Assembly: GCF_003576455.2 (NCBI RefSeq)
Contig: NZ_CP032869.1
Coordinates: 6,076,001 to 6,140,000 of the forward strand
Length of the DNA stretch: 64,000 nt
Direction of reading: 5' to 3'
Source: Mucilaginibacter celer
GTDB lineage: Bacteria > Bacteroidota > Bacteroidia > Sphingobacteriales > Sphingobacteriaceae
In this document: positions 4,044-40,100 of the stretch, piece by piece
Position numbering within the stretch: position 1 is the stretch's first letter
Layout: each line of letters opens with the position of its first letter
Translations under genes and position numbers: made by a program
Notes under the pieces: model-generated
What the model was told of the DNA's origin: nothing
The model's database searches: none
What the model saw: only the letters and a program-made list of their open reading frames with translations

Positions 4044-4391
4044 ATGGATTTAGTAAAATTTGTTGAAGAGCAATCAGTAGAAAAAAAGCAGCTTCCAACC
4101 TTCAAAGCTGGTGATACTGTAAGTGTTCACTATAAAATCAGAGAAGGAAATAAAGAACGTGTTCAGGTTTACCAAGGTGTTGTTATTCAGCGCAACAGTA
4201 CTGGTGTAACTGAAACTTTTACTGTACGCAAAGTATCAAATGGTATTGGCGTTGAGCGTATCTTCCCTGTTAACTCTCCAAACATCGACAAGATTGAGGT
4301 TAACAGCGTAGGTAAAGTTCGTCGTTCAAAACTTTACTACCTGCGTGCCCTTACCGGCAAAGCTGCCCGTATCAAATCAAAACGCGTTTAA
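4044..4391 (+). CDS. rplS: 50S ribosomal protein L19
   Basis: A 115-residue protein of normal length for bL19, which sits at the 30S-50S interface of the ribosome. Family motifs are [42 protein letters not shown] and [13 protein letters not shown], in the usual order. Codon choice is noticeably biased to a few codons, as expected for an abundant ribosomal protein. It is transcribed alone from its own -7-like box (3990-3998), through a small leader hairpin, and ends in a hairpin terminator at 4424-4462. In many other bacteria it follows trmD directly. Confidence 0.97.
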
Positions 4392-33145: not shown

Positions 33146-36019
<2,874 letters not shown>

Positions 36020-36271
36020 TTCGGATCAGAGATTAGAGGATAGCGATTAAGAGATTAGTCGCTACCTCTAATCCGCGACAAAACAGATAAACAATAATGC
36101 TGTTGTTTTCTCTTATTCAAATACTTCTTTCAATAATATGTCATGTTGAGCTAAAAGCGGAAGGCGTAAAGCCGAAAGCTGAAAAGCGAAACAATAAAAT
36201 AATAGAATAATAAAAGAATTGGCAAAAAGGCTTTTAGCTTTCAGCCTTGAGCATTAAGCTCAAAAGAAATT
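36020..36271. other. 23S-5S spacer with right pre-23S arm
   Basis: 36100-36143 pairs with 32987-33029 (the right arm of the pre-23S stem). 36026-36060 has the word AGAGATTAG(T/A) repeated, and 36150-36260 has AAAGCC/CTTTTAGCTTTCAGCC-type simple sequence with short complementarity. No gene. Confidence 0.6.
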
Positions 36272-36383
36272 CAGGTGCCTATATCGGCGGTGTCTACCTC
36301 TTCCCATTCCGAACAGAGAAGTCAAGCCCGCCAGAGCCGATGGTACTGCGGTAAAACGTGGGAGAGTAGGTCGGTGCCACCCT
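36272..36383 (+). rRNA. 5S ribosomal RNA
   Basis: About 112 nt. The ends CAGGTGCC... and ...GGTGCCACC pair as the terminal stem. The middle contains CCCATTCCGAACAGAGAAGT and GGGAGAGTAGGTCGGTGCC, the conserved loop and helix regions. Ends are approximate by a few bases. Confidence 0.95.
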
Positions 36384-36411
36384 TTATCAGCTTCAATGCT
36401 GCAACAAATGC

Positions 36412-36440
36412 AAAGCCTTAGTGAATAACTAAGGCTTTTT
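36412..36440 (+). terminator. Terminator of the rRNA operon
   Basis: AAAGCCTTAG (36412-36421) pairs perfectly with CTAAGGCTTT (36429-36438) around TGAATAA, followed by T's. Confidence 0.85.
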
Positions 36441-36442
36441 GC

Positions 36443-36657
36443 GTTGATAAGGGTTCGTAAGTTAGGTAAGCCTTGTCCTGGCGCAGAGGGTTGAGCTCGC
36501 AAAGACGCGAAGATTCTAAGTGTTTTTTGTGGATAGTTGGCGATCATAAGCACGCAAAGAGGCTAAGGACGCAAAGAAACTAATCTCTGTTCTCCAATCA
36601 CTAATCTCTAAAATCACCAACTCTCCATTCTCCGCTCACCACTCATCCAAAAACCTA
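36443..36657. other. Gene-free stretch after the rRNA operon
   Basis: No gene. 36580-36650 is phrase-like simple sequence (CTAATCTCT, CTCCAATCACTAATCTCT, CACCAACTCTCC, CTCATCC). It borders the TGGAACAC array. Confidence 0.5.
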
Positions 36658-36870
36658 CTGTTCCACTTTTAAAGGTGGAACACTTTGTGGAAATCTGAAA
36701 AATGGAACACCTGATAATCAGCGTGTTGTAAAATCGTAAAAACCTCCAAAAGCAAATTGGAACACCTTGGTATTGACAATCAGTTATTTACGAAAATCGA
36801 AAATCAAAACTGGAACACTGCGTTTTTAAAAGTGGAACACTGACAATGCCCCTCGGAGGGCATTTTTTTT
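36658..36870 (+). repeat. TGGAACAC repeat array with a terminal hairpin
   Basis: Five direct copies of TGGAACAC start at 36676, 36703, 36758, 36811 and 36833. Spacings are 27, 55, 53 and 22 nt, nearly symmetric. TGTTCCAC at 36659-36666 is an inverted copy pairing with the first direct copy. Two 53-55 nt units (36703-36757 and 36758-36810) also share AATCAG, AAATCG and AAAA in the same order. The array ends with a hairpin, ATGCCC/GGGCAT at 36846-36862, and a T run. It may be a fossil IS21-like end, an operator or iteron array, or a small RNA gene. I cannot decide. Confidence 0.7.
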
Positions 36871-37170
36871 GATACAACCTGTGGGCAGTCGCCCGGGCCA
36901 GGGTGTCTTTGAGTTTTTATATAAGTAATTGATAATCAGTTGTAAAGCTGTAATTGTTATTTAATTTAATAATGGCATAAAATTAACTTGTTACATGCTG
37001 TGTTTTCGCCAATTATCTGGCTAACAGCTAATAAAAGGTTAACGGGCTATTTATAATGTAATCACTTTGTTGCGGTTACTTTGTGGTGTCGGGTATGAGT
37101 TATAAGCCTGCAAGCCTATTATAACTCAACAACCTATAAAATATTGTAACTGTTATCACACAAGTGTTCT
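36871..37170. other. Upstream region of the TonB-dependent receptor
   Basis: No gene. It has a perfect dyad, GAGTTATAA (37097-37105) and TTATAACTC (37119-37127). A 29-nt word at 36972-37000 nearly repeats (27 of 29) at 58624-58652, before the wbpM-like gene. A further AATCAG..TTGTAAA word near 36932 recalls the array. No exact -7 box was seen. Confidence 0.5.
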
Positions 37171-40100
37171 ATGCCTTATTATTACGTTTTAAACTTATTT
37201 ACAAAGTTTAACAGATGTCTCCTGCTCGTTGCATTTGTAGCAATGTTACCGGCTTACGCCGGGGCGGTAACTGTTAATAATGTTTCAACAGTAACTGAAA
37301 CTGCCGATGGAGGCAAAATTGCCGGTAAGGTAGTTGATGAAAAGGGAGAAACTATTCCGGGCGCTACCGTAAAAATAGTAGGCCAGTCAATAGGTGCACA
37401 AACCAGCATCGATGGAAGCTTCTCGTTGTCGGTTAAACCAGGTGTTTACACACTTGAGTTCAGCTTTGTATCCTACCAAACCAAACGTATCACCGAGGTT
37501 GTTGTAAAAAACAACGAGGTAACCACCTTGTCGGTATCCCTCAAGCCTTCAAAAAACGAGCTTAAAGAGGTTGTAATCACTTCGAGTTATCGTAAATCAT
37601 CTGTAGAGGGTGTTTACACAAGGCAAAAAAATGCCGCAGGTATTACCAACGGTATTTCGTCCGAACAAATAGCTAAAACCCCCGATGCCAACTTGGGCCA
37701 ATCCTTAAAAAGGATCAGCGGACTTAGTACTTTCGATAATAAATATGTAATTGTAAGGGGTATTTCTGAGCGATATAACGTAGCCACGCTCGATGGTACG
37801 CCGCTGCCAAGTACCGATTATTCAAGAAGGAATTTCTCATTCGATGTAATCCCTTCTGAGATGATTGAGAGCGTTACCGTTTATAAAACAGTTACGCCTG
37901 ATTTGCCGGTTGGTTTTGCAGGTGGCATGGTGCAGATCAATACCCGTGATATCCCTACAAAAAACTTCATCAACTTTTCGATTGGTACCGGTTTTAACGA
38001 TCAATCAACAGGTAAAGATCTGATCTCGACCAAACGCGGAAAATATGATTATTTTGGTTTTGATGATGGTACGCGCAAAATGGCAGGTTACTTTGCTGTT
38101 ACCCAAGGTACGGTTGATCCGGCAAATCCGAAACCTTTTACTGATGATGATATCGCCTTCAGCAGGCAGTTTACTAATAATTGGAGATTGTATAAATATA
38201 AAGCTCAGCCTAATCAAAATTATACATTAACCTTTGGTCAGTCGTTTCCACTTAAAAATGCCGATAATAAAATAGGATATATCGCATCCATTAACTATCG
38301 CAATACACAAACAATAACAGATATTGTAAACCAAAGGGGCGACTTCAATTTAGGGGTAAATGATAATTATCCGCAATTTGATGCCACCCACCCATCAGGA
38401 TACGGAAAAGTTTATAATTTCAATACTACCTACGGGGGCTTATTAAATATTGGCTTTAAAAGCAAAAACCATTCAATAGGTTTAAGAAACACTTATACCC
38501 GCATTTTTTCCAATCCGCTTACCGATTTATTTGGATACCGGGATGACGAGCCAAACGCAGTTTTTGATCCGGCCTATGCGCCAACTACAGAACGTATATT
38601 AACCGAACCGGATTTTTTAGGACTGTTGCAAAATAAACTACAGGGCGAGCACAAATTTGGTAAGGTTAAATGGAACTGGGACGCAAGCCGCACCAATATT
38701 AATCGTAAACGAAAAGATATGCTTCGCCGCGAAATGACCAATTTAGCACAACGGTACGGCAGTTATTTTGTTGATTACGTTTCAAAAGATGCTGTTAACG
38801 TTTTCCCGCTGTCAAGGCAAACGTTTAATCTTTCCGAAACAGATTATAACTGGTCTACATCTTTACAGCGCACGTTTGGCAAGGCTGATTATGCCAGCCT
38901 GGTTAAAGTCGGTTATATCGGCATCAGCAAAAAGCAGACTAATGATTTTGTGACCGCCTATTTAAGAGCCGGAACGGATGCCGATATCGGCAGTGATTTC
39001 ATTAAGAAACTGATTATTGAGGATGCGCATAATAACCCCGAAAATTTCAGTAACGACAAGCTTGTTTACCAGGTTTACCCTTTCGGTTTAAGCAGTTACA
39101 GCGGTTCGTCAAACTCGCACACCTTTTACGCAATGGTTGATCAAAAAATTGGACCAAAAGTGCGTTTTGTGGGAGGTTTAAGAGCCGAAAACTTTAAGCT
39201 TGGTTTAGCAAACGACGGCTTTAGTTCGGCGAATAAACTCCTTAATACTACCGATTCGCTAATTCCTACTTTCGTTGATAAAAAATGGGAGTTTCTGCCA
39301 TCGGGTAACTTAACCTACTCGGTAAATGATCAGTTAAATCTAAGAGCTTCTTATTCGCAAAGTATTGTAAGGCCTGAATTTAACGAACGTTCATTGGCAA
39401 GTAATTACAACTCAGAATTATTGGCCGACGTAACAGGTAACCTCGTGGTGAGTACGAAAACTACCAGCTATGATATCAGGGCCGAGTGGTTTCCGGGAGT
39501 TGGTGAAATTATCTCATTAGGCGCCTTTTATAAATACCTTGATAAGCCGCTCGAGCTGGTACAGCAAAGCACTACACTGTATTATTACAATAACGGTAAG
39601 TGGGCTAAAGATTACGGTATAGAAGCCGAAGTTAGGAAGCGCTTAGGCTTTATAAATGATAACTTGCCCATTTTAGATAAAATAACCGTATTTGGTAACG
39701 CTACCTACATTAGATCAAGAGTATTGGGCTTGAAGTTTGATAAGCTGGCCCCGGTACCCGACAGACCCGGATTTCTGATGCTTACTTATAAAGAATCGCT
39801 TCAGACACGGCCTTTATATGGCCAGACACCTTTTTTGCTTAATGCCGGTGTTGGATATGACGGCGACATATTTGGGTTAAACATTGTACATAACCATACC
39901 GGGCGTAAATTTTATATCCTTACCAACGATTTAAATACCAACGAATTTGAAGGTGCTTACGACCAGACGGACGTTCAGTTGAGCGCAAACATCTGGAAAA
40001 AGAAAGGTAAGATTCGCTTTAACGTAGCCAACCTTTTTAACAGTGTTGATTTTTACTACGATAACCAGCGTAGCTACGAAAATATTGACCCTAACGGACC

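Follow-up and report, generated by a model that had tools for sequence, protein, structure and literature searches.

Transpososome ends of the Tn7/Mu type and lambda-type attachment sites combine repeated protein-binding sites with sites at which the DNA is bent. Among dispersed elements, the Correia/NEMIS repeats of Neisseria are described as almost exclusively intergenic, and their 155-bp form holds an IHF site (PMC2229807). According to the description consulted, each end of an IS21 element holds several transposase sites for cooperative IstA binding and a terminal CA, and the target-site duplication is 5 bp (PMC10122671). The array described here has an architecture like that of Tn7/Mu-type ends and lambda-type attachment sites, but no linked recombinase or DDE transposase was found. 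It is like Correia/NEMIS, as portrayed in that source, in being non-coding, shorter than 200 bp and dispersed, and in having terminal inverted repeats and an IHF-type site; it is unlike them in presenting six boxes of one motif at kept spacing together with two IHF-like motifs, in a concerted shift of the boxes between species, in the link of related arrays to an ATPase gene and in that a target duplication was not found (PMC2229807). Among the open-access papers listed in literature searches on Mucilaginibacter repeats and comparable elements, none described this array family. We regard the array, with moderate confidence, as one copy of a MITE-like, non-coding dispersed element that would serve as a nucleoprotein assembly site.

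The array lies in the window (the whole stretch of 64,000 nt that was analysed) between a 5S rRNA gene (36271-36382) and a long ORF from 37171, whose product we take from its sequence to be outer-membrane-receptor-like. Its features are collected in Table 1. An earlier note on this DNA had described five direct copies and one inverted copy of TGGAACAC in a gene-free stretch, and this was borne out: the direct copies occupy the plus strand as boxes B2 to B5 and, from 36833, B6, the inverted TGTTCCA is B1, and no ORF of at least 60 aa overlaps the array, the nearest being a mechanical ORF of 97 aa at 36260-36553 and the long ORF already mentioned. Spacings of 27, 55, 53 and 22 nt were reproduced from the TGGAACAC positions. 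As for their supposed mirror symmetry, the geometry does recur in other copies, but the two sides are unequal (82 versus 75 bp). Over both strands of the whole window TGGAACAC occurs 7 times versus 1.46 expected, a number reached in 0 of 100 shuffles. At the element ends, TGTTCCACTTTTAAA and TTTAAAAGTGGAACA form a perfect 15-bp inverted pair. The window element is non-coding, dispersed, about 180 bp long and provided with terminal inverted repeats, as in MITEs.

Table 1. Features of the array and its right border (window coordinates).
Feature	Coordinates	Strand	Basis
Whole element (six boxes, two IHF-like motifs, right-end CTGACA)	36659..36845	+	Repeat, alignment and copy comparison
Left terminal inverted repeat, including inverted box B1 (TGTTCCA, 36659-36665)	36659..36673	+	
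Box B2, TGGAACAC; near-perfect 24-bp palindrome jointly with B1	36676..36683	+	
Box B3, TGGAACAC; least kept box in relatives	36703..36710	+	
IHF-like motif 1, TGATAATCAGCGTGTTG	36712..36728	+	
Box B4, TGGAACAC	36758..36765	+	
IHF-like motif 2, TGACAATCAGTTATTTA	36774..36790	+	
Box B5, TGGAACAC	36811..36818	+	
Right terminal inverted repeat, including box B6 (TGGAACA, 36833-36839)	36825..36839	+	
CTGACA, half of the palindrome CTGACA-N-TG(T/C)CA	36840..36845	+	
Terminator-like hairpin and T run, local to the window copy, outside the element	36845..36872	+	

The IHF consensus is WATCAANNNNTTR, and two further motifs of the array, TGATAATCARNNNNTTR, resemble it. In 97 aligned copies both sites keep TGATAATCAR, followed by four free positions and a kept TTR. 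Judged by sequence, the pair fits the IHF-site consensus as WATCAR-N4-TTR at both sites, which are candidate IHF sites. With at most one mismatch allowed, the window contains 5 IHF-like motifs versus 0.58 expected, 3 of them at or beside the array. What had been reported as a diverged AATCAG..TTGTAAA copy near 36932 overlaps the IHF-like motif TGATTATCAATTACTTA on the minus strand (36938-36922); this motif stands outside the array, upstream of the long ORF. At the right end, CTGACA is present in 42 of 100 extracted copies and the palindrome CTGACA-N4-8-TG(T/C)CA in 35.

The complete genome (G000), a single contig of 7.15 Mb, contains 14 copies of the array. Among the 13 own copies examined for boxes, 9 keep all six at a spacing of 17-18/27/55-56/53/21-23; the remaining ones lack B3 or show a middle variant, and some have extra boxes at the right. 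The search of the genome and of close relatives that the earlier note had called for found the repeat unit in both, and the notion of a multi-copy, constrained array is upheld by these 14 copies, by their kept geometry and by the constraint on the boxes in relatives. The window was compared with the locus in which a copy is linked to the ATPase gene (L002). Identity is 98% over positions 35223-36581, from the 3′ part of the 23S rRNA to past the 5S rRNA, and 89% over 36632-36846, which comprise the array and 27 bp to its left; the intervening 50 bp are unaligned, and the match ends where the promoter side of the ATPase begins. Since both loci have the rRNA-operon flank and the array in common, the window copy likely arose via recombination between operons; it probably came from the ATPase-linked copy rather than from a fresh insertion. 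Two other sequences were noticed in array flanks. A different repeat of about 95 bp (L003:1758-1851) lies in the flank of one copy and matches many places in relatives, mostly in G093, and TCGTCCTGAAAAAAGTTTACACTT-like sequence, by eye a possible insertion-sequence end, occurs close to arrays of different genomes (L006, L011, L111, L112, L121).

A class-1 profile was built from the 14 own copies and 6 copies of relatives and run on 110 genus genomes. Matches at E<1e-12 were obtained in 9 of them (G000, G013, G017, G027, G031, G061, G093, G096 and G113), and some match at E<=0.01, mostly weak, in 65; copy numbers per genome in this search are lower bounds, taken from at most 23 scored candidates of each genome, and include opposite-strand echoes. 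The exact right-end pattern matched 24 stretches in named genome records, all from Mucilaginibacter. The sole match in the plasmid collection was 33 bp at E 0.2, and 0 contigs of the viral collection had the class-2 pattern (see below). From 10 genomes we extracted 100 copies, to which G010 contributed one weaker copy. Comparison of 1.1-kb flanks by reciprocal best hits gave 16 neighbourhood groups spanning at least 2 genomes, four of which have one copy in each of 8 genomes; the largest group mixes paralogues (11 members, 8 genomes). No counterpart of L001, L003, L011 and L012 of G000 was present among the copies extracted from relatives. In the group of G000_L007, the arrays of G000 and G027 have the opposite orientation, relative to their neighbours, to those of six other species. 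Contexts of the 100 copies, counted with mechanical ORFs of at least 100 aa and with orthologues counted repeatedly, were 41 -/-, 24 +/+, 19 divergent, 14 convergent and 2 undetermined, and revealed no bias towards convergent genes; when each group and each single copy was counted once, the numbers were 13, 7, 5, 4 and 2, respectively. Three arrays of G093 (L122:14544-19274) lie beside repeated gene tips that read as RHS-like and have about 80 bp of their right flank in common with a fourth array (4131-4324), which suggests local duplication.

Copies at shared sites have not diverged evenly. By mean pairwise identity, boxes were more identical than spacers in 16 of 16 groups (sign test 3e-5), a contrast to be read as an upper estimate because the profile search for copies favours intact boxes; the IHF-like motifs also exceeded the spacers in 16 of 16. 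In the six groups that hold all six TTGAACA species, identity was 0.82-0.92 for boxes, 0.87-0.98 for IHF-like motifs and 0.69-0.79 for spacers. Among the copies of one genome, spacer identity was 0.47-0.55.

The box itself differs between species: G000 has TGGAACA, six relatives have TTGAACA, and a seventh (G027) has a mixture. We scored the base before GAAC at B1, B5 and B6 in 97 aligned copies, leaving out the B2-B4 columns, which align less surely; the copies dropped from the 100 were G010_L076 and, from G027, the partial copies L082 and L085, in which the boxes that remain look G-type. The base was G in 42 of 42 cases in G000 and T in 205 of 213 in G013, G017, G031, G093, G096 and G113. 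The 11 aligned elements of G027 comprise 7 T and 4 G elements, the three boxes of each agreeing except for one truncated end, and two elements (L072, L193) are mixed at inner boxes. Eight sites could be paired between G000 and G027: four have G in both, and four have G in G000 and T in G027. Spacers were then compared for the 10 G000 copies with a counterpart. Those of L002, L004, L005, L006 and L007 are nearer to G000 paralogues than to orthologues, those of L010, L062 and L013 are nearer to orthologues, and L008 and L009 are about equal; all but one of the 10 (the exception is L005) are nearer to their orthologues than to the remaining copies in the species concerned. This comparison shows that some G000 copies were homogenised among themselves and that L010, L062 and L013 changed in place. 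Reinsertion or gene conversion was considered as the sole cause of box uniformity and rejected, given that by the spacers copying explains only part of it.

This distribution of box forms over the species points to recognition by a protein. Random decay does not yield concerted change; a protein with changed specificity, combined with copying between the arrays, would. We put forward, tentatively and as a proposal that is rather unlikely to hold in full, a genus-specific recognition system in which a six-fold box, present at twelve or more chromosomal sites that are mostly passed on vertically, would have been respecified genome-wide (TTGAACA or TGGAACA, and CGAAC-type elsewhere), tracking a changing binding protein, with the RecA-fold ATPase/HTH protein as dedicated partner and G027 caught mid-switch. 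Precise six-box geometry, inheritance at the same sites across species and joint change of the boxes make this family noteworthy among common dispersed elements. If the binder were found, the eight genomes would offer a natural series in which a protein and dozens of sites change specificity together. The arrays also connect a defined DNA element with a helicase-like family of ATPases that is so far uncharacterised.

One array group lies, in 8 genomes, directly upstream of an AAA_25 gene with a C-terminal HTH, the HTH matches of the G000 protein having E<0.001 but falling below curated cut-offs. The predicted fold (mean pLDDT 81) matches RadA, KaiC, DnaB and T7 gp4, and no solved structure matched by sequence at E<=0.01; going by this model, the ATPase is a RecA-fold helicase-like protein and not a known transposase. 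Homologues (E<=1e-20) are present in 71 of the 110 genus genomes. Among 20 ATPase loci hand-picked from well over 100, partly from array-rich genomes, a related array was located less than 1 kb upstream in 12 and downstream in 0; three of the 12 arrays (L215, L219, L220) had themselves gone into the class-2 profile by which they were detected, four (L211-L214) share one neighbourhood, and two matches (L223, L226) are weak. CTGACA-N4-8-TG(T/C)CA occurs within 300 bp of the start in 12 of the 20 loci, and in many of the ATPase upstream regions displayed the palindrome precedes TAAATTTG-like sequence. Genomes with at least 4 array matches all carry the ATPase family (28 of 28, versus 71 of 110 overall; Fisher 4e-7, with the cut-off of 4 chosen afterwards), a value that is not a probability of independence because the genomes are related. 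Some genomes that lack array matches have the family as well. G013, whose array-linked ATPase gene is broken into two frames, has a second homologue. We do not claim the ATPase as the box binder, since its HTH is similar in TGGAACA and TTGAACA species and the family occurs in array-free genomes.

Other genomes of the genus contain related arrays with other boxes, either class-2 arrays of the form GTTCC...GGAACACC(C/T)GGAACA with the same TGATNATCA motif or arrays with GTTCG/CGAAC boxes. With a class-2 profile, 13 of 151 genomes of the family gave matches at E<=0.001, strong ones only within the genus; the three matches outside it had E 3e-4 to 1e-3. The complete genome G117 alone gave 49 class-2 matches at E<1e-10. 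Of 30 contexts examined there, 14 were between convergent, 14 between co-directional and 2 between divergent genes, a bias that is as expected of insertions tolerated away from promoters. In some class-2 arrays (L110, L202), TGGAACAAAGTGAAA...TTTCACTTTGTTCCA forms, by eye, a long inverted repeat centred on CTGATTATCA.

The MITE-like reading is based on the number of copies, their constant geometry and terminal inverted repeat, the constraint on boxes and IHF-like motifs, the positions shared between species, the concerted box change and the repeated linkage of related arrays to the AAA_25/HTH ATPase gene. In the mechanism that goes with it, one sequence-specific protein would bind the GAACA boxes together, an IHF/HU-type protein would bend the DNA at the two intervening motifs, and the resulting complex would mobilise, or would once have mobilised, the element. 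The element itself would be non-autonomous, and the ATPase would be carried by coding relatives in its family; the comparison for an autonomous parent did find ATPase-linked arrays, without a transposase. Neither a transposase nor a target-site duplication nor a clean empty site turned up for the arrays. For 13 of the 14 own copies, six-frame ORF lists of the surroundings, read by eye, contained no recognisable transposase, and five own flanking proteins, beside L002, L003, L006, L009 and L013, were also scanned with profiles. No target duplication was obvious by eye at the own copies. In the empty-site comparison, the stretch flanking the window locus had no match in seven relatives, and the intergenic stretch at L003 was wholly different in relatives. 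Further results count against this reading: only one PF00216 (HU/IHF) gene turned up in G000, the constraint on boxes in old shared copies is greater than expected for a dead MITE, the class-1 contexts lack a bias towards convergent genes, and the ATPase is not a known transposase and has family members in genomes lacking array matches.

The main rival, to which we give roughly one chance in four, is that the arrays are cis-elements maintained by the host for a cellular job (chromosome architecture, or control of the ATPase or of neighbouring genes) and either do not move or have ceased to do so. The constraint on boxes and IHF-like motifs at sites common to up to 8 genomes argues for it, as does the concerted change of the boxes. 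Even spacing of the G000 copies on the chromosome (CV 0.41, reached by 0.05% of random placements) would fit as well; we set it aside because it was tested only after being noticed and does not recur, by eye, in the listed G093 positions, where gaps range from about 0.06 to 1.4 Mb. Against host maintenance stand the variation of copy number between genomes, the four G000 copies lacking a counterpart in the extracted set and the absence of a consistent neighbour or gene orientation for class 1.

Other readings of the array fared worse than the MITE-like one. That it is a REP/REPIN-type element moved by a RAYT is improbable. Like REPINs, as far as they are characterised in the source used, the arrays are dispersed extragenic repeats, and RAYTs are found near two copies in relatives; unlike them, they have no REP-type hairpin doublet and, in G000, no adjacent RAYT (PMC3116915). 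The two neighbouring RAYT genes, assigned by NCBIfam, adjoin the array in G013 (L075:653-1225) and G027 (L124:7855-8361), the G027 protein having no Pfam match, and REP-like hairpins flank some arrays by eye. However, the four RAYT-family matches in G000, one of them over the curated cut-off, come no closer than about 32 kb to any copy, a partial G027 array looks split by separate REP-like hairpins (by eye), and the boxes are spread across 180 bp instead of lying in one hairpin.

The earlier note had also listed IS21-like ends. An origin of the array from an IS21-type (IstA/IstB) insertion sequence, as its MITE or its solo end, is very improbable, despite the TG...CA termini and the likeness of its repeats to the repeated transposase sites and terminal CA described for IS21 ends (PMC10122671). 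The genome has 8 IstB-profile matches over the cut-off, six at 240.5 bits and two weak ones (33.8 and 27.8 bits) inside longer frames, and the six strong ones are about 97 kb or more from any copy. The edge of this IS21-type element, read on one side and in L034 and L035 only, shows TTGACCA repeats and no TGGAACAC array. Neither istA nor istB, which the note had proposed to look for beside other copies, could be made out by eye in the surroundings of 13 of the 14, and five of the six boxes point in the same direction.

The remnant of an iteron-type replication origin is a still poorer fit: the direct repeats at a distance of 22 bp, the inverted pair of boxes and the IHF-like motifs would suit it, as would the gene for a helicase-like ATPase beside one copy, but 14 copies on a chromosome and the 49 class-2 matches of G117 do not, and no Rep initiator was recognised by eye in the flanks. 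Least credible of all is a small-RNA gene ending at the T-run hairpin, for although the window copy has such a hairpin and the B1/B2 stem pair switches from C-G to A-U in 6 of 20 sequences, Rfam matches within 35000-37300 are rRNA only, with no known small-RNA family, the covariation that had been suggested as support amounts to a consensus-fold term of -0.17 with two pairs changed on both sides, the direct boxes B5 and B6 have changed too, although pairing with a single inverted box would not call for this, and among the 13 own copies shown the hairpin is confined, by eye, to the window copy.

The hairpin said to close the array exists (36845-36864 plus a T tail) but is not part of the repeat: the alignment of the window copy to its closest copy stops at 36846, where the hairpin begins, and at that place the hairpin is absent, by eye, from 12 of 12 other own copies shown. 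The interval 36380-37200 contains 4 terminator-like sites versus 0.6 expected, and one of these is the B1/B2 palindrome, which also scores as terminator-like on the minus strand (36682-36659).
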